A DNA stretch of 35,445 bases, from positions 1 through 35,445 of IMG/VR virus record IMGVR_UViG_3300042464_000268; one strand, 5' to 3'. Within the stretch, counting starts at the first letter, position 1. Every line of letters begins with the position of its first letter. Position numbers and translations under genes: made by a program. Of the stretch, positions 725 to 35,445 are shown in pieces. Source of the stretch: a virus. The notes below the pieces were generated by a model, which saw only the letters and a program-made list of their open reading frames with translations, searched no databases and was not told the DNA's origin.

Positions 725-1156
725 TTATTCCTCGGAGATCGTCAGGGTGCTCGAGGCGAATTCCGGGATGATCAGGTTTGACACGGCGAGCGATGCGGTG
801 AGCTCGCCCTTGTACAGGATCTTCCCTGCGCCGCTCGATCCGGTGCCGACCGCGAAATGGGAGATCGTGTTCGAGCCCCCGGTGCATTGCGGGAAGGTGA
901 TCGCGGCGGCGTTCGTGACGGAGTTGTTCGTCACGGTCCATCCGCCCGAGGTGCGCGCGACGGCGACGCGAGCGTAGCCGGTGTAGCTTGCCTCGCTCGC
1001 CGTCTGCGATCCCGACTCGCCAGGATCGGCGGTGTGAAGCGAGACGTAGAGGTTCGTGTTCGGCGAGCTTGCCGCGTTGTCTGCCAGGTTGGCGATCGCC
1101 GTACCCTGGAAGAACAGTTTCATCAGGTCATTCTCGAATGTGTTGCCCTTTGACAT
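725..1156 (-). CDS. Small virion-associated protein next to the tail fibre
   Basis: A 143-residue protein opening MSKGNTFENDLMKLFFQGTA and continuing 'NLYVSLHTADPGESGSQ'. I recognise this as a widespread family of small phage proteins encoded beside tail fibre or structural genes, sometimes named tail fibre protein; its exact role is not established. The middle is rich in Ser, Thr and Gly with alternating hydrophobic residues, which suggests a beta-sandwich. There is no signal peptide or membrane segment. The gene lies 11 nt after the transferase stop and 6 nt before the fibre GTG, so it is co-translated with the fibre. A structural or fibre-accessory role follows from this context and from family resemblance. 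Confident as a gene, moderate for function. Confidence 0.75.
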   Translation of the reverse strand: MSKGNTFENDLMKLFFQGTAIANLADNAASSPNTNLYVSLHTADPGESGSQTASEASYTGYARVAVARTSGGWTVTNNSVTNAAAITFPQCTGGSNTISHFAVGTGSSGAGKILYKGELTASLAVSNLIIPEFASSTLTISEE

Positions 1157-1167
1157 TTTTCAATCTC

Positions 1168-1785
1168 CTAGACTGTCCAGTTGACATCCCGCGGGCGCGG
1201 GACACCGTGAAAACAAACGACGCGCTCTTCGCCAGGCCACCGAGCGCCAAACTTTCGCGAGACGATCTGTCTCGGGAATAACTCCTGGAGGCGCTCCGGC
1301 TCGAAGCCGACCGTCTCCGAGATCCATGCCTGATCGCCCCATCGGGTCGGCTCCAGGTAATCCGTCACGCGCTCCTCGCTGAATTCGAGCGCAATGTGTG
1401 AAAAGTCGCCGCACCAGGCCATCACGCCCGACGCGCATCTCGACGGCCGACCAAAGTCGGAGAGCATCGAGAATTCATGCGGGTAGCCCGCGATGTCGTC
1501 GACCGACCCGACGATCACCGTGTCGAGGTCGAAGTACAGCGTCGGCCCGGTAAACCACTCGAAGAGCTCGAGCTTTGACCACCACCCCGACCAGGACCGC
1601 AGGATCGGCACCCGGTCGCACGGAACGTCGACGTCCGAAAGACACACGAATCGGTGCGGGATCGAGAGGTGCGCGGTGACGCCCTGGTGAAGGCGCTCGA
1701 CGTAGTCGATCCCGTAGTCCCCGCCGGAGCGGAGAACACAGGCGACCGTCAGATCACCGCGCGCAGTTCTACTCTCGGATAACAC
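1168..1785 (-). CDS. GT8-like glycosyltransferase
   Basis: Probably transfers a sugar from a nucleotide-sugar donor, with a GT-A fold. Visible motifs are the opening strand 'LTVACVLRSGGDYG', then 'WWSKLELFE', the DxD metal/nucleotide site in 'TLYFDLDTVIVG', 'WGDQAWISE', and a C-terminal 'VVCFHGVPRPRDV'. This pattern (DxD after a hydrophobic strand, late F-H-G-x-P) is typical of small bacterial and phage proteins related to glycosyltransferase family 8. There is no clear ATG: the frame is open upstream over the previous gene, and I use GTG 1785, which overlaps that gene by 37 nt; a CTG at 1752 also fits. It sits between capsid and fibre genes with a second transferase-like gene, so a virion protein or the host surface is the likely acceptor. 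The acceptor itself is an inference. Confidence 0.7.
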   Translation of the reverse strand: MLSESRTARGDLTVACVLRSGGDYGIDYVERLHQGVTAHLSIPHRFVCLSDVDVPCDRVPILRSWSGWWSKLELFEWFTGPTLYFDLDTVIVGSVDDIAGYPHEFSMLSDFGRPSRCASGVMAWCGDFSHIALEFSEERVTDYLEPTRWGDQAWISETVGFEPERLQELFPRQIVSRKFGARWPGEERVVCFHGVPRPRDVNWTV

Positions 1786-2396
1786 TCGAGCGCCGTGTCG
1801 CGCGTTGCGTTCAAGATCTCGAGGTCCGGATGTCGCTGCGAGGCCTCGTTGAAGGCCGACGCGAACATCTGATAAGGCGACGCCTTGTTCAGCGCGCCCG
1901 GATGATCCCCGAACCAATGTCTCTTCGCCCCCATCTTCATATCGAAGCCGAGCAGCACGATCGGCGAGCAGCTCGCCAGGACGGCAAGGTTCACCGCCTG
2001 GAAGCCCGAGTTGTCGCCGCGATGTATTCGACCAGGCTCGAGCGAGAAGCCCTGCCGATCGACGCTCTCGATGTAATGCAGGCGCCACCGTCTAGCGGCT
2101 CCGGCGTCCTGCGTTACTCGTAAACCGTTGAAGCTCGCCGCGCCCTGGTGGAGATCCCACCATTCGGGGTCCGCGGCATAGAGCACGTCGGCCCAGGGTG
2201 CGAGCTTGTAGTTGTCGTTGACGACGATGACCGCCGCGCGATTGCGGCAGTAGTCGACGTCGTCTGCGGTAAGACTAGGCCCGCTCGCGACGACGACGCA
2301 GGGACGGCCCCGCAGTCTCGCGAAAGGGTTCCGGCGCACCGCCGAGCGCCTGGTGTTCTTGCGGACCGGGCGCTCCGTCTCGAGCTGCCCATCCAT
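1749..2396 (-). CDS. DUF115/Maf-like or GT42-like transferase
   Basis: A 215-residue soluble protein. An Arg-rich N-terminus leads into 'CVVVASGPSLTADDVDY', a GxGPSL-type nucleotide-binding loop, then 'VIVVNDNYKLAPWADVLYA', 'HRGDNSGFQAVNLAVL' and 'PIVLLGFDMK'. This order (GPS loop, an N/D-rich acceptor region, GxxAVxLA helix, GFD) resembles the DUF115/MptE-like family, which includes the flagellin-modifying Maf proteins, and GT42 sialyltransferases. I cannot decide between them by eye. The ATG at 2396 lies inside the preceding small gene (122 nt overlap); no later start would keep the GPS loop. It directly precedes the GT8-like gene, so the two probably act in sequence on one acceptor. Donor and acceptor are unknown. 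Confidence 0.65.
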   Translation of the reverse strand: MDGQLETERPVRKNTRRSAVRRNPFARLRGRPCVVVASGPSLTADDVDYCRNRAAVIVVNDNYKLAPWADVLYAADPEWWDLHQGAASFNGLRVTQDAGAARRWRLHYIESVDRQGFSLEPGRIHRGDNSGFQAVNLAVLASCSPIVLLGFDMKMGAKRHWFGDHPGALNKASPYQMFASAFNEASQRHPDLEILNATRDTALECYPRVELRAVI

Positions 2397-2568: not shown

Positions 2569-3807
2569 TCAAGTCGTCGCGCACTTGATGACCTTGACCG
2601 CCTGGTTGTCGGCGAGCTTGCCGCCGACGCGCTTGCGGAAGATCCACTTCACCTGTCCCGGAGTCGTCACTTCGTCGAGCGTCACACGGAGGCCGACGAG
2701 GTCGACGATCGTGTAGGCCGCGCGGAAGTCACCGAAGGCGATCGGGAAGGCGTTCGCGCCGATGTCCGCCATGTCCTCGTTCTCGACCACAGCGTAGCCG
2801 AGGAGGCTTGACGGCATCCCGGCGGCGATGCCCGGTTGCCAGAGGTAGTTCGCTTCCGAGTCCTTGAACTTGCGAACGACCGCCAGGGTCGCCTTGTTCA
2901 TCATCCAGCGAGCATTCGCGCGGTAGCCCGCCTTCAGCTTGTGGACGAGGTCGACGAGCTTGTCAGCCGGGTAGGCCACAGGCGAGGTCAGCGACAGCGC
3001 CGGGAAGCCAGCCGCAGCGCCGGTCGCGACGTACTGCACCGAGCCGAACGCCAGGGAGGCGTCGTCCGAGGTGCTCTTCGTCGCGGCCATGATGCCGGTC
3101 GGCTTGTTGGTGCCGTTGCCCGTCGTGAAGGCGACGCCTTCGGCGGCGGCGAAAGCTACCGACACCGAGTTCGTCAGCCAGCCCTGGACATCGAAGAAGA
3201 TGTCGTTGAGCGACTCTTCCGAGGCCTTCGGGTAGGCGTAGAGCGTGCCGAACGTCGGAGCCACTTCGCCGAGGCTCGGCGTGTTGCTCTCCGAGCGCGT
3301 GCCGTTCTCACCCGCCCAGGCGGTGCCGGTGCCGAGCACGTCGACCAGGATCTTGTAGTCCGGGCTCGACGCGGTCACCACGTTCGCCACCTGACGCATC
3401 GGCGAGATGTTGGTGAGCTGCGTGATGATCGAGCGAGACAGCTCCTCGGGGACAGCGTAGCCGCCCGCCGCCGAGCCGCCGCTGCCGGTCGTGTAGACGG
3501 CCTTGCGCTCGGCATCCTGGAGAGCCGCGATCGACTTCTGGTCGCGCGGGTTGCGGATGTAGTTCACGAAGGCTGACTTGTGCTCGTCGTCCTTCTTGCC
3601 CTCGCCAGCGCCCGCGACCGTGATGCGGCCGAGCTTGACGTTCACTTCCTCGAGCGACTTCTGAACCTTGGCGAACTCTGCGTCGGCCTTGGCCTCGAAC
3701 TCGCGGCGCTCGCTATCCGAACGCTTCTCGAACACCTCACGAGCGGAGCGCTCGTCGGTGACCACCTTGGCGAGCGCATCGACGGCGCCCTTGACTTCAA
3801 TAGACAT
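2569..3807 (-). CDS. Major capsid protein, HK97 fold
   Basis: A 412-residue HK97-type capsid protein. Residues 1 to about 65 are charged and helical ('VFEKRSDSERREFEAKADA'), like the delta/scaffold domain removed during maturation. The body has standard markers: 'GGYAVPEELSRSIITQL' near the N-arm, 'SPMRQVANVV' (spine helix region), 'YAYPKASEESLNDIFFDVQ' and 'TGNGTNKPTGIMAA', and a C-terminal P-domain 'FGDFRAAYTIVDLVGLRVT'. It follows portal and prohead protease in canonical order, and that protease supplies the cleavage. ATG 3807 has an upstream AGGAAA. The downstream neighbours are not connectors but transferase and fibre genes, which is unusual. Confidence 0.95.
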   Translation of the reverse strand: MSIEVKGAVDALAKVVTDERSAREVFEKRSDSERREFEAKADAEFAKVQKSLEEVNVKLGRITVAGAGEGKKDDEHKSAFVNYIRNPRDQKSIAALQDAERKAVYTTGSGGSAAGGYAVPEELSRSIITQLTNISPMRQVANVVTASSPDYKILVDVLGTGTAWAGENGTRSESNTPSLGEVAPTFGTLYAYPKASEESLNDIFFDVQGWLTNSVSVAFAAAEGVAFTTGNGTNKPTGIMAATKSTSDDASLAFGSVQYVATGAAAGFPALSLTSPVAYPADKLVDLVHKLKAGYRANARWMMNKATLAVVRKFKDSEANYLWQPGIAAGMPSSLLGYAVVENEDMADIGANAFPIAFGDFRAAYTIVDLVGLRVTLDEVTTPGQVKWIFRKRVGGKLADNQAVKVIKCATT

Positions 3808-5746: not shown

Positions 5747-7432
5747 TTAAATGGTCAAGATGCCGCGCTCTTCGTAGACACTCGGTCCGTCGAGCTTCGG
5801 TGCGGCCTTCGCGCAGGCGCCGATCGCCATCGCGAGCGCGACCATGCCGTCGATGCGGCCGGTCGCTTTTGCTTTGTCCAGTTTTCTATTTCCGGCGGCG
5901 TCCCGAGTTGCGACCGCGTTAGCAGCGCACCAGGTCAGGACCGGATGCCCGCCGTGATGGATACGTTCCGCCATCAGCTCGCCCTCGAGCGCGTCGAGCG
6001 CCGGAGCCATGTCGCGGTAGCCTTGGCCGAACTCCACCAGGGGGAGCTCGCGACCGAGCCGCGACAGCTCGGTTTTGAACACATCCATCCGCCACCGATC
6101 GAAAGCGATCGCGGCGACATCCCAATCGTCGCAAAGCTGACAGAGCTGCTCGGCGACGACTGCGTAGTCGACCGACGCGCCCGGCGTCGCGACCAAGTGT
6201 CCGCGATCTCTCCAGACGTCATACGGAGCCCGGTCCCTCGAGGCCCGGTCCGTCAGTCCCAGGCTTGGCGCAAAGAAGGTCGGCCGGATGTGCCAGGCGC
6301 CCGAGGTGTCTCGAGCGACAGCAACCATCGCCGTTAGATCGTTCCGCGCCGAAAGGTCGAGCCCGATATAGACCGGGTTCTCGTAGAACGCGGCCTCAAC
6401 AGGATCGGCACCGTTCCGTAGCCAGATCGCTCGAGGCACGAACGGCGAGGTCTGGTCGACTCGTTGGTTCAACACCAGGTTCCGGTAGCTGCTCTCGCGC
6501 GACGGCATTCGCTTCGCCGCTGCGGCCTGCTCCCGAACCTCCGTCGGGTTTAGGAAGTCGCCGAAGGCGGGATTTGCCGCCCTCATCGCTTCGTCGGAGA
6601 ACGGGTCCATCGACTCGTCCGCCGAGAACATGAAAAGTTTCGTCTTCGGATCGGCGCCGGTTTTCGCGTCGTCGATCAGTACCGACAGAAGGTCCGCGTC
6701 GGTCGGCGCCTGCGTCGAGATCACAATCGAGAGCGGCTCCGCCTGGGCGCCGCTCGCGGTCTCGAGCGCCTCGTAGAGTTCGCTCCGCGGCCCCTTCACC
6801 TGGCCGAGCTCGTCGTGAACCGTGAAGACCGGAGAGAGACCGTAGGCGGTCGAGGCCTCCGCCGAGAGCGCCCGGTACAGAGTCCCGAGTTCCTGGCAGT
6901 AGAGCTGCTTCGCTGTGTCTCTAACCGCGACGACCGCGTTCAGATCCGGAGACATCCGGACAATCTTCGCGGCGAGCGCGAAGAGGATTGCCGCCTGGTC
7001 TCGACTCTGCGCTGCCGAGAAGAGCTGCGAGTTCGCTCGAGCTTCCGGTCCGCAGAGTTGCAGGAGTAGCAGGAACGCCGAGAGCGACGTCTTGCCATTC
7101 TTGCGTCCGAACGTGACGATCGCTCGTCGCGTCGGGGAGTCGTAGATTCCGCGAATAATCGACCGTTGCCATTCGCGCAGCTTGACCGGCTGACCGACCA
7201 GGGCGCCTTCCGGTACCCGACAGGTCGCCTCGATCCAGGCGATGTTCCGGTCGCCCCTGGTTAGGTTCCGAACTCCCAGGGTTTCTTCGGAGCCGCGCGA
7301 TCGCTTGCGGTTGCTGCCGCGCGGGCGCCGTACCGGCTCTGCTGCGTCAGTCGCATTTTCGTCGCCAGGCTTGCGAGTTGTCCGCCGATCTTCGTCTGGA
7401 GGTTGATCAGGCGGTCGTAGTCGTCGAGGCAT
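5747..7432 (-). CDS. Terminase large subunit (start uncertain)
   Basis: Packaging motor and nuclease. The ATPase domain has a Walker A-like 'TFGRKNGKT' and Walker B/acidic 'VFTVHDELGQ', then motif III-like 'SIVISTQAPT'. The RNase H-like nuclease domain has 'VYIGLDLSARNDLTAM', 'AIAFDRWRMDVF' and 'GRIDGMVALAMAIGA'. The family body begins around 'NLTRGDRNIAWIE', but the only canonical start upstream is ATG 7432, which overlaps the small terminase by 172 nt; the extra 50 or so residues read like shadow sequence. A CTG at 7279, just before the small terminase stop and after GAAGAA, would give a typical N-terminus. Function is certain; the start is not. Confidence 0.9.
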   Translation of the reverse strand: MPRRLRPPDQPPDEDRRTTRKPGDENATDAAEPVRRPRGSNRKRSRGSEETLGVRNLTRGDRNIAWIEATCRVPEGALVGQPVKLREWQRSIIRGIYDSPTRRAIVTFGRKNGKTSLSAFLLLLQLCGPEARANSQLFSAAQSRDQAAILFALAAKIVRMSPDLNAVVAVRDTAKQLYCQELGTLYRALSAEASTAYGLSPVFTVHDELGQVKGPRSELYEALETASGAQAEPLSIVISTQAPTDADLLSVLIDDAKTGADPKTKLFMFSADESMDPFSDEAMRAANPAFGDFLNPTEVREQAAAAKRMPSRESSYRNLVLNQRVDQTSPFVPRAIWLRNGADPVEAAFYENPVYIGLDLSARNDLTAMVAVARDTSGAWHIRPTFFAPSLGLTDRASRDRAPYDVWRDRGHLVATPGASVDYAVVAEQLCQLCDDWDVAAIAFDRWRMDVFKTELSRLGRELPLVEFGQGYRDMAPALDALEGELMAERIHHGGHPVLTWCAANAVATRDAAGNRKLDKAKATGRIDGMVALAMAIGACAKAAPKLDGPSVYEERGILTI

Positions 7433-7671
7433 TCCGGGCCTACCTCGCGCAGCTTGCGCGAGACGCGCCGGGATTCCGCGGCCATCGTGCAGTAGTGCTC
7501 GAGGAGCGGAAGGTTGTCGGGACCGAACCAGTCCGCAGGCTTCGAGGCGACAATCTCGCGCCAGATCGCGCTCTCGTCGTCTCCCAGGCGATCAGGAGGT
7601 GCGACCCTCTCATGGGGTGCGACCCGTACCACCGAGAGCCCCTCGGCGCTCTTCCGGCCTCGCTGTAGCAT
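7261..7671 (-). CDS. Terminase small subunit, P27 family
   Basis: A 136-residue DNA-recognition subunit of the packaging enzyme. Residues 'DDESAIWREIVASKPADWFG' and 'LLEHYCTMAAESRRVSRKL' form the helical core. 'DDYDRLINLQTKIGGQLASL' followed by 'TKMRLTQQSRYGARAA' is the C-terminal pattern of P27-type small terminases. ATG 7671 follows AAGGA at a reasonable distance. It immediately precedes the large subunit and follows an HNH nuclease, the arrangement typical of cos-packaging HK97-like phages. Confidence 0.9.
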   Translation of the reverse strand: MLQRGRKSAEGLSVVRVAPHERVAPPDRLGDDESAIWREIVASKPADWFGPDNLPLLEHYCTMAAESRRVSRKLREVGPECLDDYDRLINLQTKIGGQLASLATKMRLTQQSRYGARAAATASDRAAPKKPWEFGT

Positions 7672-7756
7672 TTCAGGAATCCTTGCCGATTAGCACGAAA
7701 CAGGCACGCGCTCGGTGTCCGAGCCTCGAGCCGTAGAGATTCGACCCTCCCCTCCC
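7672..7756. other. HNH-terminase gap, candidate cos region
   Basis: The 85 bases between the HNH nuclease and the small terminase are one of the few gaps in this tightly packed strand. They hold a perfect short dyad GCTCGG-TGT-CCGAGC at 7710-7724 and a C-rich tract at 7744-7756. In cos phages with this gene order the cohesive-end site often lies next to the small terminase gene. I see no decisive cos motif, so this is only a candidate. Confidence 0.2.
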
Positions 7757-8110
7757 TCACCGCTGAAAATTCCAGGGGTGGGAGGGGTCGAGGGGGGCGC
7801 CCGAGGTGTCGCATCCCCGCAGGGTTCCGGTCTGCTCGAGCTCGGCCTTCGCGCCGTTGTGACACGGCTCGCAGAGCGGTTGCCAGTTGGTCGCCGCCCA
7901 GAAAAGCGTTTCGTCGCCGCGATGAGGGGTGACGTGATCGACGACCGATGCCGCCGTCACCCTGCCGAGCTGCTCGCAGAATACGCAGAGCGGGTGCGCT
8001 GCCAGGTATGCCCGGCGCGCCTCTCGCCACTTGCGACCGTACAAACGATCGCGCTGCTCTTCCCTTGACCACAGTCCAGGTTTCGATAGTTTCGTCATGC
8101 AAATGTACAC
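7757..8110 (-). CDS. HNH endonuclease
   Basis: A 117-residue HNH nuclease with a zinc-finger-like scaffold. 'CVFCEQLGRVTAASVVDHVTP' supplies the first CxxC pair and the D-H of the active site, and 'WAATNWQPLCEPCHNGAK' gives the Asn, the second CxxC pair and the final His. In HK97-like phages such a protein beside the terminase is required for cos cleavage and packaging, so that role is likely here. Translation may start at GTG 8110, two bases after the previous stop, or at ATG 8098 (MTKLSKPGLW). It ends with 'PWNFQR', frequent in this group. Confidence 0.9.
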   Translation of the reverse strand: MYICMTKLSKPGLWSREEQRDRLYGRKWREARRAYLAAHPLCVFCEQLGRVTAASVVDHVTPHRGDETLFWAATNWQPLCEPCHNGAKAELEQTGTLRGCDTSGAPLDPSHPWNFQR

Positions 8111-8111
8111 A

Positions 8112-8561
8112 TCAAGCGTTTTTCGCTGACCAAGCGTCCGCGACGGAAAGCGCGCCGTACATTGCCGTCCGGAAGCGACGCAGGAGCGTCTGGTATTGAG
8201 CCGGGCTCATCCGCAGGCGCCGAGCTCGTACTTCGTTAGGTTCGTCCCTCGGCGTGAGGTAGGTGACCTCGACGAGCTGCGCCCAGGTCCGCCGGTCACG
8301 GCAGAGATTGGTCACGCATCGCTCCACCACCTCCACGCCATTCGGCCAGTTTTCATCCGGCGCGTACCCGCCCGGCGAATTGATCCCGAGCACGATCTCG
8401 CGCAGGAGCTTCGTGCTGATTGACTCGCGCGGGTAGCCAAGCGCGCCGAGTCGATCTCGAGCGAACCTCGCCCATTGATACATTCGCCAATCGACGAACG
8501 CGGTCACGTCGGTCGCGTTTCTGGGTTTTCTCTCGTAGGCGTCGGCAGTCGCGGTGCTCAC
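8112..8561 (-). CDS. Putative late-gene regulator (antiterminator/ArpU-like)
   Basis: A 149-residue basic, mainly helical protein: 'FVDWRMYQWARFARDRLGALGYP', then a Cys pair region 'VVERCVTNLCRDRRTWAQ', then 'RRLRMSPAQYQTLLRRFRTAMY', which looks like a sigma region 4-type helix-turn-helix. This shape, and the position between the replication/recombination genes and the packaging genes, match phage late regulators such as Q- or ArpU-like proteins. Assignment to one family is not possible by eye. GTG 8561 overlaps the RusA stop as GTGA. A late antiterminator would also explain how the two strong terminators at 28.0 kb are passed. Confidence 0.45.
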   Translation of the reverse strand: MSTATADAYERKPRNATDVTAFVDWRMYQWARFARDRLGALGYPRESISTKLLREIVLGINSPGGYAPDENWPNGVEVVERCVTNLCRDRRTWAQLVEVTYLTPRDEPNEVRARRLRMSPAQYQTLLRRFRTAMYGALSVADAWSAKNA

Positions 8562-29020: not shown

Positions 29021-29346
29021 TAGACGAACCTCTCGACGCAGAGAAGCTGAAGCTCGCGGTTACGTTCGTCGCGGTTGATCACCGACTGGATGTCGAAATA
29101 GCGCGAGCCGAACTTGACGCGATCCTTCGGCGTCAGCGTGACGCCCGAAATCGGACGGATCACGATGCGCGTCGACACCTCGCTCTGCATCTGCGCCGCG
29201 GCGAAATACTCGCGGCCGTTGAGCGGCTCGACGGACGCCCAGACCGTACCGAGAGCCGCCCAGGTCGGCGTCTGGTCTCCGTACTGGTCGATCGCGTCGG
29301 TCGCCCGTTGGACGGTGACACGATGTCGAAGACGCCCCGCCTGCAT
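29020..29346 (-). CDS. Head-tail joining (head closure) protein
   Basis: A 108-residue protein: 'QAGRLRHRVTVQRATDAIDQ', 'TWAALGTVWASVEPLNGREY', 'VSTRIVIRPISGVTLTPKDR', 'GSRYFDIQSVINRDERNREL'. This is the typical phage head-tail joining family (SPP1 gp16/HK97 gp7-like) that stoppers DNA after packaging. It shares boundary bases with both neighbours. Confidence 0.92.
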   Translation of the reverse strand: MQAGRLRHRVTVQRATDAIDQYGDQTPTWAALGTVWASVEPLNGREYFAAAQMQSEVSTRIVIRPISGVTLTPKDRVKFGSRYFDIQSVINRDERNRELQLLCVERFV

Positions 29347-29921
29347 CAGAACACCTTGAAGGGCGACAGGAGCGCGGTGAATCCGAGCGGAAACTCGCTG
29401 ACGACCGTTCCGGTAAGCGTTGCCTCGCGGTTTTCGTAGAGGTGCGCGGTCATCAGTTTGATCGCCGCCTTGATGGCGGGCGGGACATCGCTCGGCGTAC
29501 CGTAGCCCGCGACGTAGCGGATACGGACGTCGTTGATGTGCCCGCGCGAGCTCGGCCAGGTCTGGTTATAGGCCTGAAAGATCATGCCAGGCTGCGCGAA
29601 CGGTCCCGAGTCGTTGACTACCTGGTAGCTGTTTGCCGAGAGCGTCTGCGTGTTGCCTGCGATGTCGATGTAGGTGATCGAGGTGACGCTTGCGAGCGGC
29701 CCCTTCGGGAGCTCGAAGTAGAGCGGGAACTGATCGACCCGCAGCTCCCAGGTCGTGCTGACGAACGAGCGCCCGGTGTAGGCCTCGGCGTACTCGCGCG
29801 AGGCCTTCGTGAGCGCGAAAAGCATCTCGTCGTCCTGGTTGCCGTCAATGCGGCAATGCGAGCGCGCCTCTTCGACCGTTACCGGCTCGCCCGTCGGAGC
29901 CGTGATCAGGGTGTGGTTCAT
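29346..29921 (-). CDS. Head-tail connector, gp6/phiE125 gp8-like
   Basis: A 191-residue adaptor: 'EPVTVEEARSHCRIDGNQDD', 'MLFALTKASREYAEAYTGRS', 'FVSTTWELRVDQFPLYFELP', 'VRIRYVAGYGTPSDVPPAIK', 'AAIKLMTAHLYENREA'. These are the landmarks of the HK97 gp6/phiE125 gp8 connector family that binds beneath the portal. Length is near the family norm. In most relatives it comes right after the capsid gene; here about 8-9 kb of fibre and transferase genes intervene. Confidence 0.92.
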   Translation of the reverse strand: MNHTLITAPTGEPVTVEEARSHCRIDGNQDDEMLFALTKASREYAEAYTGRSFVSTTWELRVDQFPLYFELPKGPLASVTSITYIDIAGNTQTLSANSYQVVNDSGPFAQPGMIFQAYNQTWPSSRGHINDVRIRYVAGYGTPSDVPPAIKAAIKLMTAHLYENREATLTGTVVSEFPLGFTALLSPFKVF

Positions 29922-30193
29922 AGCTGTCGCACCTGTACCAGGACCGAGCGGTCCTCGATGCGTCCGCCCGGCGTCGTGACGCGATTCGTGATGAGGTAGT
30001 CAGCTCCGGCCGCTCCGCCGGAGAGGAAGGCGCGCGTCACGTTCGACGTCACGCCTTCGGAGACAATCGTCAGAGCGGCGGGAACTTCCCAGGCGGACGT
30101 CGTGACCGTGTCCCCGTTTAGCCAGGGATTCCAGTCGACCTCGAAGTCGATCGTCGAGTTTGGATCTTTTGTGAATGCCGCGATGATCGTCAT
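29918..30193 (-). CDS. Small beta-rich virion-associated protein
   Basis: A 91-residue protein: 'AFTKDPNSTIDFEVDWNPWL', 'GDTVTTSAWEVPAALTIVSE', 'TRAFLSGGAAGADYLITNRV', 'TTPGGRIEDRSVLVQVRQL'. This 'KDPxxxxDFxVDWxxWL' family is frequently found between capsid and connector genes in HK97-type phages and is probably a small Ig-like virion protein. It overlaps the repeat protein and the connector gene by 4 nt each. Precise role unknown. Confidence 0.75.
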   Translation of the reverse strand: MTIIAAFTKDPNSTIDFEVDWNPWLNGDTVTTSAWEVPAALTIVSEGVTSNVTRAFLSGGAAGADYLITNRVTTPGGRIEDRSVLVQVRQL

Positions 30194-31731
30194 GCAGCGA
30201 TTCTCCTGTTATTGCGTGAGACCTTGATCGTGCGGCCTTCCGCTTCGACCTCGATCGAACTGTCAGCGCCGACCTTGAGCGTCGAGCGCTGCGGAATAAT
30301 TTCGCGGCGATCCTGGAACGGAACCTTCAGCTCTCGAGAGTCCGGCGTGAAGGTGCGATTCCGTATCCTTCCGGATACAGTTGCGTCGCCTTCGGCGCTG
30401 CCGTCGACGGCGCCGTAGCCGACCGCCTGGCCCTCGAGCTCGGCGGTGCCGTAGACCAGGCCCAGGATCGGACCGCGACCGTAGAGCGTGACGATCGAGC
30501 TCGCCTCGCCCGCCGCGTCGCCGACCTGGCGACCGTAGGCCAGGATCGAGGCGGTTGCGCTCGAGGTGCCGGTCTCGTTGCCGTCAACAATTCCGCGACC
30601 GTAGGCCGGGACATCCTCGACGGTGCTCTCGCCCGAGATCGCGCCCTGGATAACCGAGCGACCGTCGATCGCGCCTGCGACCGTGGCGTCGCCTGCGATC
30701 GAGCCGGAGCCCATCGCGAAGGCGCGCGCCTCGGCGCTGACCGTCGCCTCTCCTGCGATCGAGCCGTCCGTCCGGCCGAATGCCAGGATGACCGCGCTCG
30801 AGCTCGAGGAGCCGATCGCCGCGCCAGGTGCGGAGATCTTCCGCTGCCCTTCGCCCGTGACCGTCGCCAGGCCTTCGGCGGAGCCGGAGCCCTGGGCGGT
30901 TGCCAGGATGCCGCCGGACACCGAGCTCGAGGAGCTCGAGGTCGCGCTGACCTGGGCGGTCGCATAGATGCCCGCGCTCGCCTCCGCAGAGCCCGCAGAG
31001 GCGGCGTCCGGCCGACCATAGGCGAGGACATCCCCCGCGATCGTGCTCGCCCCCTGCGCCTCCCCGTTCGCCGGGAAGATGCCCTGGATCGCGCCGTCGA
31101 CCGTTGAGCTGCCGGTCGTTTCGCCGCGGCTCGAGAACCTGGCGGTCCCGGAGCCGGTGACCGTCGCCGAGCCCTCGGCCTGGCCGGTTGCCTGGCCGGT
31201 TGCGAGCGCATCGCCCGAGACCGACGAGCTCCCGGAGCTCGAGGCGTCGAGTCCGGTGCGCGCCTGGACATCGGCCGCGGCCGTAGCCGTCCCCGCAGCA
31301 GCGCCCTCGCCTTCGATACGCCCGGAGCCGTCGGCGGTTGCCGTCGAGCTCGAGCTCGAGGAGGCGGAGATCGGCCCCGACGCAATGACCGCGCCCGCGA
31401 CCGTTGCAGATCCCGAGGAGATGCCGCTCGCCGCGCCCGCCGCAATGATCGAGCCAGAGACCGCCCCGGTCCCGGCTGCGGAGCCGGTCGCCGAGGCGAT
31501 GGCTCGAGAGGTTGCCGACGTCGTCGACGAACCCGCGGAGCTTGCAATCGGACGGCCGATCGCGTCGATGTCACTTGTGACCGTTGCCGAGCCAACACTC
31601 GCGCCAGGCGAGGAGATCTTCGGAACGAGCGCGCCGGTGACGGTCGCTGACCCTGCGGCGGTGCCGTACAGCGTATCGCCGACGGCATAGCCGAAAAGCC
31701 AGTAGTCGCTCTGGACGTATAGGCCGCTCAT
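30190..31731 (-). CDS. Repeat-built virion surface protein, about 22 twenty-residue repeats
   Basis: A 513-residue protein in three parts. Residues 1-26 are aromatic ('SGLYVQSDYWLFGYAVGD') and may bind the virion. Residues 27 to about 465 are tandem repeats of almost exactly 20 residues, consensus G-S-A-T-V-x-G-x-(I/V)-x-A-x-G-R-x-x-x-S-x-A, one having a single inserted residue. The C-terminus (466-513) has 'ELKVPFQDRREIIPQRSTLK' and 'VEAEGRTIKVSRNN', similar to short phage proteins rich in xxExR motifs. The regular period suggests a beta-solenoid. Ser, Thr, Ala and Gly dominate; Cys is absent. It overlaps the next gene by ATGA and lies within the fibre/transferase block. A head or neck fibre is my inference. 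Confidence 0.7.
   Translation of the reverse strand: MSGLYVQSDYWLFGYAVGDTLYGTAAGSATVTGALVPKISSPGASVGSATVTSDIDAIGRPIASSAGSSTTSATSRAIASATGSAAGTGAVSGSIIAAGAASGISSGSATVAGAVIASGPISASSSSSSTATADGSGRIEGEGAAAGTATAAADVQARTGLDASSSGSSSVSGDALATGQATGQAEGSATVTGSGTARFSSRGETTGSSTVDGAIQGIFPANGEAQGASTIAGDVLAYGRPDAASAGSAEASAGIYATAQVSATSSSSSSVSGGILATAQGSGSAEGLATVTGEGQRKISAPGAAIGSSSSSAVILAFGRTDGSIAGEATVSAEARAFAMGSGSIAGDATVAGAIDGRSVIQGAISGESTVEDVPAYGRGIVDGNETGTSSATASILAYGRQVGDAAGEASSIVTLYGRGPILGLVYGTAELEGQAVGYGAVDGSAEGDATVSGRIRNRTFTPDSRELKVPFQDRREIIPQRSTLKVGADSSIEVEAEGRTIKVSRNNRRIAA
30337..31653 (-). repeat. About 22 tandem 60-bp units encoding 20-residue repeats
   Basis: At protein level each unit begins with G/S-x-(A/S)-(T/S) and most have A-x-G-R or similar near the middle. 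DNA copies are diverged, although short 8-12 bp words such as gcctgcgatcgagcc recur. Confidence 0.85.
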
Positions 31732-31774
31732 CTAACCTCCGAGCCGGTCTCGAAGTCGGACGCGGCCTGATTCA

Positions 31775-31942
31775 TCACGGAGCCGGATCAGCTCCTTCTG
31801 TCTTCTGTGCGAGCTGCGGTTGCGCCTGGCGTTGCAGCTTGTCGATGAGTCCGGCGACGACCTCGAAGGGTTGCTTCGCGAGCGATGCCAGGACGACGTT
31901 CGCCTCTTCGGCGGTGAGTTCAAACTTCAAGACGTTGTTCAC
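31775..31942 (-). CDS. Small structural-region protein, 55 residues
   Basis: A short protein starting 'MNNVLKFELTAEEANVVLAS', followed by 'LAKQPFEVVAGLIDKLQRQA' and a Glu/Pro end. The LKFxLTxEEANVVLxSLxxxPF pattern is recurrent in small phage proteins encoded among tail and fibre genes, of unknown role. I choose GTG 31942 because GGAG lies 5 nt upstream; ATG 31963 would place the site inside the gene. It lies 43 nt before the large repeat protein. Confidence 0.6.
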   Translation of the reverse strand: MNNVLKFELTAEEANVVLASLAKQPFEVVAGLIDKLQRQAQPQLAQKTEGADPAP

Positions 31943-31964
31943 GTTGTCTCCTACTGCTTCCAAA

Positions 31965-32528
31965 CTACGGTGCGCTGTCTACTGAAAATTCGATGGTCGC
32001 CGTGTCGAGTACCGCCCCGCTCGAGGCGAGGCGGATTTCGATCGCTAGGTTCCGCGTCTGGTAGTCATTGGTCGCGGATAACGTCCACTCGCGAGTCGTC
32101 GCAAGGTTGAGCCACGAACCCGTCGTCCCGCCCACCGTTCCGCCGGAGCCCGACCAGGTCGCATACACATCGAACAGCGACGCGGCCCCGCTCGTCAGCC
32201 ACTCGCCGCTGATCGAGACAAGAGTCCCGCCGACGTTCGTGCGGGACGCTGCGCCGGTACTGGCGAGCCGATATGTGGCAGTCGCCGTGCCGCCGATGCC
32301 TGCCTTCGAGTTGTTTATCGCCGACTGGTTGCTAATCGCGACGCTCGCGTTCGCCTTACCGTAAAAGCTCGAGAGCGAGATCGCGCCGCTCGCGACGCCC
32401 GCCAGGGTCCGCAGCGCCGCATCGTTAAGACTCGAGGTCGCGGTCGCCGAAAGTCCGAGCTCGAGGTTAATCGAGCGATCTGTCGTCGACCCGCCGATCG
32501 AGATCTCGCCGGAGGAGACGAGAGGCAT
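31965..32528 (-). CDS. Fibre-region virion protein, 187 residues
   Basis: A beta-rich protein starting 'PLVSSGEISIGGSTTDRSIN', then 'LELGLSATATSSLND', 'AGVASGAISLSSFYGKANAS', then 'ISGEWLTSGAASLFDVYATW', and an end 'NLAIEIRLASSGAVLDTATI'. The N-terminal 80 residues form a widespread phage motif (SSGxISIGG...ISLSSFYGK) seen in small structural proteins near tail fibres; the C-terminus looks like an Ig or carbohydrate-type beta-sandwich. Start overlaps the upstream stop (TAATG). Possibly a virion decoration or receptor-facing protein; not proven. Confidence 0.65.
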   Translation of the reverse strand: MPLVSSGEISIGGSTTDRSINLELGLSATATSSLNDAALRTLAGVASGAISLSSFYGKANASVAISNQSAINNSKAGIGGTATATYRLASTGAASRTNVGGTLVSISGEWLTSGAASLFDVYATWSGSGGTVGGTTGSWLNLATTREWTLSATNDYQTRNLAIEIRLASSGAVLDTATIEFSVDSAP

Positions 32529-32890
32529 TAGGCCGCGGCGTCAGCCGGTGCTGCCGGAGCTTCGGGAGCCGGAGCCCAGGGGAGAGGCTTCTGCTCGAGC
32601 GCCGCCTTCTCGACTTCCTTCGCGACGACGTAGGCGATGTGCGCCTGGTACGGCGCGAGCTGATCTTCCTGCGCCCACACCCAGGCCTCGACCTCCTCCG
32701 CGGTAAGCTGCGAGAAGTCGACGAAATTCTCGGGAGCCGGATCGCCGACATTGACCGAGATCGGAAGCTCGAAGCTGCACCCGGTATCGGTGCCCTTGAG
32801 GTTGCAGTCGACCTCCTTCACGACATTCTGGAGCTCGCCCAGGTTATGCACCCGGACCGCGTTGATCGTCAGCGTGTATTCGATAGCCAT
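32528..32890 (-). CDS. Fibre-adjacent protein (DUF7936-like)
   Basis: A 120-residue protein opening 'AIEYTLTINAVRVHNLGELQ', then 'VVKEVDCNLKGTDTGCSFEL', 'ENFVDFSQLTAEEVEAWVWA', ending in Ala/Pro-rich sequence after 'KPLPWAP'. The beta N-terminus, 'DFSQLTxExVxAWV' and 'PLPW' match a family of small proteins that follow tail fibre genes in many phages and may assist fibre assembly. It begins 12 nt after the fibre stop. Confidence 0.7.
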   Translation of the reverse strand: MAIEYTLTINAVRVHNLGELQNVVKEVDCNLKGTDTGCSFELPISVNVGDPAPENFVDFSQLTAEEVEAWVWAQEDQLAPYQAHIAYVVAKEVEKAALEQKPLPWAPAPEAPAAPADAAA

Positions 32891-32902
32891 CTGATAATTC
32901 TC

Positions 32903-35445
32903 CTAGTGAACCCGAGCGCGCAGCTCGGCGACTTCTTGTTTCAATGCGACAAGCTCCTTCGCGAGCGCGACCGCCGACACCATCGCGGCGTTACCGTAAG
33001 CGACCGAGAGGTCGCCGTTGTCGGCCTCGATTACCGCCTCGGGTAGGACATCGCGGAGCGACTGCGCCGAGACGCCCGCCTGGGTGATCTCGACGTCGGT
33101 GCGGTCGTATATCCCGCTCTTCACGTTCGCAAGATTGACGAGGAAGCCATCGTCTAGCTTTCGCCAGTTGGCCTTTACTCGTTCGTCCGAGTAGGCGGTG
33201 ACGTTGCCTGCGGCGATCACGTTGCCTGCGCCGTTTACTCGGAAAGCGACCGAGTTGCCGTTCGTGTTAAGAACGCGGAAGCCCCGCGTATCGTCGCCTG
33301 TTCCGTAGAACTGAACCTGCATCCAATACTGCGAGCCGCCGTCGTAAGAACAGCCATATGCCCAGTTAGAGTCCGAGGCAAATCGTATGAAAGACGGCGT
33401 GTTGTATGCGGGCCCGCTGATGTTGCCGGTCATATTCCCGCCAGAAAGCGGAAGAGCGTAGCTCCCAAAGTTTGCGCTTGACAGCATAGTGAGCCAGTTG
33501 CCCCAGCTGCCGGCATATCCCTGCCTGAAATACAGGGTACCGTTGCCTGATGTGCCGTAACTCCCCTGTGCTTGCCACATGGTGTCGATACCGCCGACAT
33601 GGAGAACAGGAGCGTAAGCGATCGCAGCACCGGCTCCACTTTCAGTCCGGTAAACAGCAGTGTTGGCTCTATCTACGTTTACCGAGCCTGACCCGAGACC
33701 AAGCAGGTTTATTGCTGACGCCGAGCCAGAACTACCAGTGACACTGATTGACCAAGTACCGCTCGCGCCGCTTCCGGTGAGCGAGGGCGCATAGCTCGTG
33801 TAGTTCTGATTAGTCAGCACTCTGTTCCACGTTTGCCAGCTTGCACCGTTCCAACCACCACGGAACGCGAGATCGTTTCCGGCGTGGCTTACATAGAACT
33901 GCGCTTGACCGGGGCTAGCGTTGAAACTCAACGTTGTGCCGTATGGATATGCGTAAGCGGTCGGCTTGTTTGGGCTGCTTTCTATATAGCCGGAAACTAT
34001 GTTCGAGCTGAAGTTGCCGTAGGTGTTGAAGTCAAAGTTATCAACGTTGCCACGGTTTCTTACGGTGTAGGCACTCATTGACTCTGCGACTGCTGCCGGA
34101 GTTGTCCTGACGAGCTGGTTTGTCGTCGGAAACATCGACACCAATACCGTCGGCGTCGTTGAGGATAAGCCAGAACTTAAAACAATCTCGCGCGCCGCGA
34201 TGTCGCCGTTTCCATCTCTGTAGGCAATAGTGTTCGCAGTCGCCGCCGTCGTCGGATTGTTGTATCCGCTGATAGAACCCGAGGTTCCGGTGACGTTAAT
34301 TCCCCACGTCCCACTAGCGCCGCTGCCGGTAAGTGAGGGCGCGTAGCTAGTGTAGTTTTCCGTTGAAAGGAAAACGTAGGGCCCACGGAACGTGCCGCCT
34401 TCGAGCCGCGAATACTGCGGCGGGCTCCAGAACGGCATGATGAGCGTCTGGTTGTAATAGGTCGCGCCGTCGCCATGGTTATTTATTAAATAACTTGCCC
34501 ACCCCGATTGCCCGGCGAAGGTTCCAGACTCTTGTCGCCATGTAAATGTTCCGTTGCCATACCCGCTGCTGTTTACGGTTGTTGTCGCTCCAGCAGTGCC
34601 GGTGACGTTAATACTCCACGTTCCGCTCGCGCCGCTGCCGGTGAGCGAGGGGGAGTAGGAGGTGTAGTTACCGGCGTGGAGAGCAAGATTGCTTCCAATA
34701 AAAAACGATCCAGAAGTAACCTTCGCGCTGCCGCTGGAGTCTTGAAGGTTCCATACGTTTGATCCGCCGCGCCAAACGGTAAGCACATCCTGCCAGCCGT
34801 TTACAGCTCGCTGCACAAAATTGGCACCGCCGCCGTCTGCTCCAACCGTTAACGTACCAGTCAGCGTCCCGCCGGACAGCGGCAAATAGCTCGACAGCGC
34901 GGAGCTTGTGATGTAGCCGCTCGGATTTGTCGCGTTGTAAGGCGTATAGCCGAGAGCGCCTGTCACCTGGCCGCTTGTGATGCTGCTAACGGTCGCAGCA
35001 TTTCCGGTGATGTTGATCCCCCAGGTACCAGACGCGCCCGTGCCAGTCAGCGTCGGCGAGTACGAAGTGTAGTTACCGCCATGAATTACAGCATCGCCGT
35101 TCCAATAGAGGATGCCGTTCGTACGCATCTCAAGGAACTTGCCGACGTTTCCGCTGATGTGGAACGCGATGCCGGTGGCGGTATTGTCGTAAGACTCCGT
35201 CCACAACGCTGCCGTCGTATAGTTTCCAGCGGTTTGGCTTTTGCGGAATTGCCCGGTTGGCGAAACCAACACACCAGTCAGCGTCCCGCCGCTCAACGGC
35301 AGATAGCTCGACAGCGCCGAGCTTGTGATGTAGCCGCTCGGGTTCGTGCTGTTGTACGGCGTGTACCCGAGCGCGGTCGTGACGTTGCCCGAGGTAATTT
35401 CGCCGCGGATCGTCGCGGAGCTCTTGTTCTCGACGTTGCCGAGGC
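32903..35445 (-). CDS. Tail fibre protein, main part with S74 chaperone (continues from left edge)
   Basis: The frame is open from the right edge to 32903. It continues the 718-start gene: the edge reads 'GLGNVENKSSATIRGE', identical to the left part. Four copies of 'NYTSY(S/A)PxLTGxGASGTW' spaced by variable domains, and repeated 'SGYITSSALSSYLPLSGGTL', form the shaft. A receptor-binding area follows. The last 110 residues are an intramolecular chaperone of the endosialidase type (peptidase S74): 'VTAYSDERVKANWRKL', with the Ser-Asp pair of the cleavage site, then 'AGVSAQSLRDVLPEAV' and 'AMVSAVALAKELVALKQEVA'. The chaperone trims itself after trimerisation. Base composition in 33.3-34.8 kb is visibly more A+T-rich than neighbours, suggesting exchange. 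Confidence 0.92.
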   Translation of the reverse strand, partial: LGNVENKSSATIRGEITSGNVTTALGYTPYNSTNPSGYITSSALSSYLPLSGGTLTGVLVSPTGQFRKSQTAGNYTTAALWTESYDNTATGIAFHISGNVGKFLEMRTNGILYWNGDAVIHGGNYTSYSPTLTGTGASGTWGINITGNAATVSSITSGQVTGALGYTPYNATNPSGYITSSALSSYLPLSGGTLTGTLTVGADGGGANFVQRAVNGWQDVLTVWRGGSNVWNLQDSSGSAKVTSGSFFIGSNLALHAGNYTSYSPSLTGSGASGTWSINVTGTAGATTTVNSSGYGNGTFTWRQESGTFAGQSGWASYLINNHGDGATYYNQTLIMPFWSPPQYSRLEGGTFRGPYVFLSTENYTSYAPSLTGSGASGTWGINVTGTSGSISGYNNPTTAATANTIAYRDGNGDIAAREIVLSSGLSSTTPTVLVSMFPTTNQLVRTTPAAVAESMSAYTVRNRGNVDNFDFNTYGNFSSNIVSGYIESSPNKPTAYAYPYGTTLSFNASPGQAQFYVSHAGNDLAFRGGWNGASWQTWNRVLTNQNYTSYAPSLTGSGASGTWSISVTGSSGSASAINLLGLGSGSVNVDRANTAVYRTESGAGAAIAYAPVLHVGGIDTMWQAQGSYGTSGNGTLYFRQGYAGSWGNWLTMLSSANFGSYALPLSGGNMTGNISGPAYNTPSFIRFASDSNWAYGCSYDGGSQYWMQVQFYGTGDDTRGFRVLNTNGNSVAFRVNGAGNVIAAGNVTAYSDERVKANWRKLDDGFLVNLANVKSGIYDRTDVEITQAGVSAQSLRDVLPEAVIEADNGDLSVAYGNAAMVSAVALAKELVALKQEVAELRARVH
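34822..34924. repeat. Internal fibre module copy
   Basis: The copy inside the fibre gene, identical to positions 1-103, encoding 'SALSSYLPLSGGTLTGTLTV'. The related module at about 35265-35341 is similar but not identical. Confidence 0.9.
35319..35445. repeat. Contig-end overlap, right copy
   Basis: Identical to 81-207; see that entry. A fixed-length overlap at a branch is typical of assembly from short words, so this is probably a circle and not a physical terminal repeat. Confidence 0.95.

Follow-up and report, generated by a model that had tools for sequence, protein, structure and literature searches.

A putative two-step glycosylation cassette beside the capsid gene of a temperate phage and its relatives

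Glycosylation of phage particles has been reported from mycobacteriophages: the capsid of phage Che8 is described as glycosylated (PMC11256854) and Mycobacterium phages as bearing glycans at the C-termini of capsid and tail tube (PMC12619734). The Che8 genes gp108-gp110 encode three adjacent glycosyltransferases (GTs), one of them fused to an O-methyltransferase. Phage P1 carries a cluster with the order pmgN-pmgO-pmgP-ppp-pmgQ, of which pmgO, pmgP, ppp and pmgQ were non-essential in a genome-wide CRISPRi screen (PMC10695390); pmgO and pmgQ belong to the two families analysed here, which we call GT1 and GT2, respectively (as distinct from the established "GT2-family" of enzymes mentioned below), and pmgP encodes a DUF115-like protein. 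Both families are already catalogued. What appears to be new is their linkage to the capsid gene, the nesting of GT2 in GT1-bearing lineages, the surrounding tailoring genes and the tie to phages P1 and D3; we found no description of a capsid-linked GT1/GT2 cassette in the literature searched, although one may exist.

The locus studied lies in a 35,445-bp virus record (the window, i.e. the whole stretch of DNA analysed). The phage is temperate, encoding a serine recombinase and an S24-type repressor, and its late structural operon is on the minus strand. The original prediction was of a virion glycosylation system made up of two transferases and a repeat protein, rich in Ser and Thr, with this repeat fibre or the capsid as the possible acceptor. 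On balance we favour the reading that GT1 and GT2, as part of the late head operon, act in two steps to glycosylate the virion, and that the head, not the repeat protein, is the likeliest carrier of the sugar chain.

Gene layout and predicted enzymes

The minus-strand order is TerL, portal, protease, capsid protein (MCP), a 78-aa ORF, GT1, GT2, a gp80-type fibre protein and a long fibre, followed by small proteins, the 513-aa repeat protein and a gp6-like connector (Table 1). Both transferase ORFs were confirmed and, as originally predicted, are situated between capsid and fibre genes, i.e. between MCP and the gp80-type gene, which directly follows GT2, GT1 or the small gene, varying by relative. 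The 3' end of GT1 is overlapped by GT2, whose likely start codon falls just before the end of GT1 and at the same place as in aligned close relatives. The small ORF overlaps the 5' end of GT1 by ~120 nt, and many IMG/VR loci, as well as D3 with its orf6.5, repeat this layout upstream of GT1. The window ends share a repeat (1-208 and 35286-35445) inside the large fibre gene, which probably means either a circular contig or one that broke at fibre repeats; across its ends, the repeat protein is ~5 kb from the transferases. Its original placing in the same block as these is fair, since relatives such as L200 and L006 have the whole order MCP-GT1-GT2-gp80-fibre-repeat protein-connector complete on one contig. 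In this phage group the interval from MCP to connector houses the fibre block (29918-32890 and 725-1156), which is missing there in loci L025, L027 and L028.

Table 1. Features of the window discussed in the text
Feature	Position	Strand	Remarks
GT1, predicted sialyltransferase/Maf/DUF115-fold protein, 215 aa	1749-2396	-	ATG at 2396, stop at 1749
GT2, predicted GT8-like glycosyltransferase, 205 aa	1168-1785	-	likely GTG start at 1785, stop at 1168
Small head-operon protein, 78 aa	2275-2511	-	overlaps GT1 start in another frame
MCP, HK97 type	2569-3807	-	PF05065 E 5.5e-79
gp80-type fibre protein, first gene of fibre block	725-1156	-	PF23140 E 1.2e-21
Long fibre, split by contig ends	2-718 and 32903-35445	-	
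513-aa repeat protein	30190-31731	-	period 20 residues; without a match in Pfam or PHROG
Head-tail connector, gp6-like; downstream end of MCP-connector interval	29346-29921	-	PF05135 E 4.7e-12

Profile and model comparisons indicate that GT1 is a protein of the sialyltransferase/Maf/DUF115 fold. It matches phrog_4603, labelled alpha-2,3-sialyltransferase, over profile positions 1-173 of 178 (E 8e-47), and the best PDB sequences for its family profile are Campylobacter GT42 sialyltransferases, including CstII, at a marginal E of 0.06. Its AlphaFold (AF2) model (pLDDT 94.9) gave human ST8SiaIII as the top Foldseek match (E 5e-4, TM 0.44), a likeness at the level of fold. Its motifs are ASGPSL, DNSGFQ, LLGFDM, HWFGDHP and NAT. 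Residues G39, S41, G150 and N196 are invariant across 74 homologues, with G131 (73/74), H160 (72/74) and D152 (71/74) nearly so. GT1 resembles CstII and the flagellin Maf/DUF115 transferases in its GPSL loop, its SG...GxD core and its best PDB profile matches, but differs in the marginal sequence similarity and in being a stand-alone phage protein of ~200 residues. A different reading, in which GT1 is nucleotide/pterin pyrophosphokinase-like (MptE/TPK branch) rather than a sugar transferase and has some other use in virion assembly, draws on PF01973 (DUF115/MptE-like), which is the sole Pfam match and is found in 61 of the 74 homologues at E <= 0.01 (the window protein scores 25.4 bits, under the gathering cut-off of 34.6), and on thiamin pyrophosphokinase at Foldseek rank 13 (TM 0.41). 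We consider this very unlikely, given that the top fold matches and the best PDB profile sequences are sialyltransferases, the latter of GT42, and that GT1 is accompanied by a GT8-like enzyme, other GTs and methyltransferases.

GT2 matches phrog_1962 (glycosyltransferase) over positions 1-215 of 230 (E 8e-39). Its family profile finds a galactosyltransferase (2e-4) and glycogenin (~6e-3), and its AF2 model (pLDDT 93.7, the first eight residues at low confidence) matches glycogenin in Foldseek at E 6.5e-9. The predicted GT-A fold, together with a DxD and a C-terminal HGxxxP metal/donor motif, is consistent with the GT8 family, although GT2 itself has no Pfam match and only two of 68 homologues match PF01501 (Pfam GT8) at E <= 0.01. 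The motifs are intact: the DxD foreseen in the original prediction is present as YFDLD (residues 86-88), with D86 and D88 invariant in 68/68 homologues, GDQ occupies 150-152 and FHGxPRP 192-198 (H193 in 61/68, P198 in 66/68). Fold, DxD, GDQ and HGxxxP are shared with the GT8 members glycogenin and Skp1 galactosyltransferase; unlike these, GT2 is small (~200 aa) and below Pfam GT8 detection. The first assignments, DUF115/GT42-like and GT8-like, are supported by profile and fold searches.

GT1 and GT2 are conserved in tens of IMG/VR contigs with low dN/dS (0.16-0.21 and 0.11-0.29, respectively, versus 0.31-0.40 for the repeat protein), indicating that they are functional genes rather than chance ORFs and are under purifying selection. 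Neither protein has an obvious membrane segment (maximum 19-residue hydropathy 1.71 and 0.89).

Linkage to the capsid gene and to tailoring genes

GT1 occurs in 73 records of a public phage collection (E 1e-5) and GT2 in 31, the carriers including P1, P7, D3 and relatives, Caulobacter and Brevundimonas giant phages, Citrobacter phiNP and Tetraselmis virus S20; among the matches listed, all those with a named bacterial host are from Gram-negatives. Scans of IMG/VR gave at least 586 matches to GT1 and at least 562 to GT2. The homologue in Klebsiella phage Eowyn is annotated "structural protein", a label for which we found no supporting proteomics. In L027 (5596-6209) the GT2 homologue is broken into two frames, by a frameshift or an assembly error, and in L055 an HNH/AP2 endonuclease gene (7233-8384) lies within the GT1 cluster, where a second GT1 homologue is in pieces.

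GT1 and GT2 behave as a capsid-linked cassette. Fifty records were picked by GT1 similarity, 46 of which have an HK97-type MCP (PF05065), and in all 46 GT1 is downstream of MCP on the same strand; the distance between the two has a median of 308 nt and does not exceed 1 kb in 39 records. Because the records were chosen in this way, shared ancestry contributes to this figure. GT2 is not MCP-linked in general, a recognisable MCP being present in 9 of 48 GT2-fetched records, and the genes of P1 (pmgO/pmgQ), phiNP and CcrPW lie away from MCP, with both families together in P1 and phiNP. GT1 was found in 36 of 74 loci fetched by GT2 alone and GT2 in 18 of 53 fetched by GT1 alone; where both are present they share a strand (54/54), usually with GT1 upstream (48/54). 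The genes behave as accessory ones, with clean presence or absence among close relatives.

A second sample was assembled blind to the transferases, and comprises 117 distinct MCP loci with >=1.5 kb downstream, fetched as MCP relatives. GT1 is present in 21 of these and GT2 in 11, all of the latter with GT1 (11/11, against 0/96 among GT1-free loci). On the MCP tree of this sample GT1 requires two changes, so that capsid linkage there is partly shared ancestry, and GT2 requires five; GT2 has therefore been gained or lost inside GT1-bearing lineages. Confinement of GT2 to GT1-bearing loci is as expected if GT2 acts on the product of GT1, and the nesting suggests that GT2 needs that product.

Across 45 loci the GT1/GT2 clusters supplied 124 proteins for scanning (GT-bearing clusters only), and the commonest matches besides connectors and head proteins were to methyltransferases (Methyltransf_23 in 14, FkbM in seven), with GT2-family glycosyltransferases (five), sulfotransferases (three) and GT-D (two) also present. 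A methyltransferase gene is likewise found near GT1 in D3, PAJU2, S20 and CcrPW.

These surroundings bear on two further targets. LPS and LOS are commonly built by GT8-type and GT42-type enzymes, and the phage is temperate, so that GT1 and GT2 might modify the host surface (LPS or capsule) in serotype conversion or superinfection exclusion. We regard this as improbable: the genes are within a late head operon, expected to be silent in the lysogen, they lie beside the capsid gene in dozens of phages, and they come without a membrane segment and without a flippase or bactoprenol transferase neighbour. Hypermodification of phage DNA has a precedent in DNA-modifying phage glycosyltransferases (Pyle et al. 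2024, as cited in PMC12619734). Against it stand the head-operon position and the FkbM-type methyltransferase and sulfotransferase neighbours, and no base-hydroxylating, hydroxymethylase or TET-like gene was recognised among the window proteins scanned, a set that took in part of the small ORFs; such a role seems extremely unlikely. Decoration of the particle fits better than modification of either DNA or LPS, because the enzymes are soluble, the operon is a late head operon, the genes are dispensable in P1, their presence is patchy and their neighbours are of the kinds listed above.

Candidate acceptors

One of the acceptors first proposed, the 513-aa repeat protein, shows autocorrelation peaks at 20/40/60 in a Gly/Ala/Ser sequence and, on this periodicity, is probably a beta-solenoid fibre. 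That the enzymes glycosylate this protein or the tail fibres would agree with the gene order, fibre and repeat genes coming straight after the transferases both here and in close relatives, and with the 22-28% Ser+Thr of these proteins. It would also agree with the occurrence of PF08759 (GT-D) in two proteins of related clusters, this fold being known from the glycosylation of serine-rich adhesins. The repeat protein was described as full of Ser and Thr, and at 25% Ser+Thr it is; the richness is not distinctive, since 28% is reached by both the N-part of the fibre and the 187-aa protein, and 25% by gp80. Nor does its 16% Ser approach the extreme content of serine-rich-repeat adhesins, and the 20-residue-period, solenoid-like sequence is not that of an SX adhesin.

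The distribution of the genes argues more directly against this acceptor. Contig G099 (32.7 kb) has an MCP 70% identical to that of the window, a gp80 gene 311 nt after it and a repeat protein 36% identical, and neither GT1 nor GT2 is matched at any point along it; conversely, in L025, L027 and L028 the order is MCP-GT1-GT2-connector, the fibre block and repeat protein being absent from that interval. In further loci (L010, L014, L017, L018, L021 and L022) GT2 is absent while GT1 and a 77-88% identical repeat protein are present. The repeat family was found in this phage group alone (22 loci), with none in INPHARED, whereas the GTs occur in very different phages. The repeat protein assorts independently of GT1 and GT2, and dissociation in both directions rules it out as their obligate partner; a Ser-rich acceptor obligately linked to its transferases, as in serine-rich-repeat adhesin glycosylation, was not found at this locus. 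The three-gene system of the original prediction thus does not hold up against these variants, and we consider glycosylation of the repeat protein or fibres unlikely. The broader idea of virion glycosylation is retained, with support for general decoration from profiles, folds, head-gene linkage and tailoring neighbours: glycosylation of the particle is likely, and the repeat protein an unlikely target.

The most constant companions of GT1 are MCP and the small overlapping protein, neither of which gave a convincing residue signature tracking it. The 78-aa protein is a possible alternative acceptor. Proteins from this ORF have basic tails with motifs such as APENK or SSxxAPASxxKT; they are also found in L217-L219, which are without GT1, and the tail motif was rejected as a GT1-dependent acceptor because relatives lacking GT1 have it too. 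As a marker of the acceptor, C-terminal Ser/Thr of MCP seemed encouraging in a GT-biased set of 48 proteins but failed in the blind sample (15/21 with GT1 versus 66/96 without). A C-terminal Cys (KCA[TA][TS]) in that sample occurs in 15/21 GT1-positive and 1/96 GT1-negative loci; we do not take this as evidence, because the tree holds only two independent pairs. The end of MCP (2569-2600) reads KCATT in relatives with GT1 and GT2, KIAAA in those with GT1 only and KIAA in GT-free members of the same clade.

Proposed mechanism and relation to known systems

In the mechanism we propose, GT1 would, during late gene expression, place a first sugar on a side chain of a head protein, with MCP or the adjacent small protein as the favoured acceptor, and GT2 would then add a hexose from a UDP-sugar to the product. 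The donors would be supplied by the host, as no nucleotide-sugar gene was recognised in the phage; no sialic-acid synthesis gene was recognised among the window proteins scanned. Observed are the intact predicted folds, purifying selection, the head-operon position, the nesting of GT2 and the tailoring neighbours in relatives, and from these we infer the reaction, order, donor and acceptor.

A more far-reaching and doubtful extension would be a widespread, unrecognised capsid-glycosylation island in Gram-negative phages, including P1 and D3, in which GT1 would use a CMP-activated sugar from the host to prime a head protein, the GT8-type enzyme would extend it and the methyl- and sulfotransferases of relatives would tailor it. 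The primer could be Kdo, since CMP-Kdo is the only CMP-activated sugar known to be common to essentially all Gram-negatives. Support for this extension is indirect, coming from the Gram-negative hosts named among the listed matches to GT1 and GT2 and from laboratory E. coli K-12, which is not known to make CMP-sialic acid. If particle glycosylation is correct, it would be common in Gram-negative phages and carried out by enzymes unrelated to those of mycobacteriophages, with a bearing on how phages are recognised by antibodies, how stable they are in the environment and how they adhere to surfaces.

Close named counterparts are found in P1 and P7, where pmgO (phrog_4603) and pmgQ (phrog_1962), and hdmB-hdmD, respectively, represent the same two families in one cluster at ~33% identity. 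The P1 cluster differs in being away from the capsid gene and in having pmgP and the phosphatase gene ppp in between. PmgP (phrog_2111; 4004-4630 in L050, i.e. phage P1) is a distant relative of the GT1 family, with weak matches to PF01973 and phrog_4603, so that in P1 the GT8-like PmgQ is accompanied by a pair of DUF115-like proteins. Few phages are used as widely as P1, and its pmgO, pmgP and pmgQ, so far labelled only "putative morphogenetic" genes, are now tied to a capsid-linked transferase cassette of many environmental phages.

In Pseudomonas phage D3, orf7 resembles the GT1 of the window in lying in the head operon directly after MCP and orf6.5, and PAJU2 gp10 in lying in the head operon, there after head closure; both phages have a methyltransferase a few genes on from the GT1 homologue, but their annotation of this region, unlike the window, shows no homologue of GT2. 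Homology to the Che8 transferases was considered and rejected, the GT1 and GT2 profiles scoring < 1 bit on gp108-110, and the Che8 enzymes are of the GT2, GT2-like and GT25 families, and their genes lie outside the head operon, at the far end of the genome. By analogy, nevertheless, Che8 is probably the working analogue: like the window and its relatives it has a few GTs side by side, together with an O-methyltransferase domain, and the sugar-building and tailoring gene set described here appears similar to that of Che8, assembled from different enzymes.
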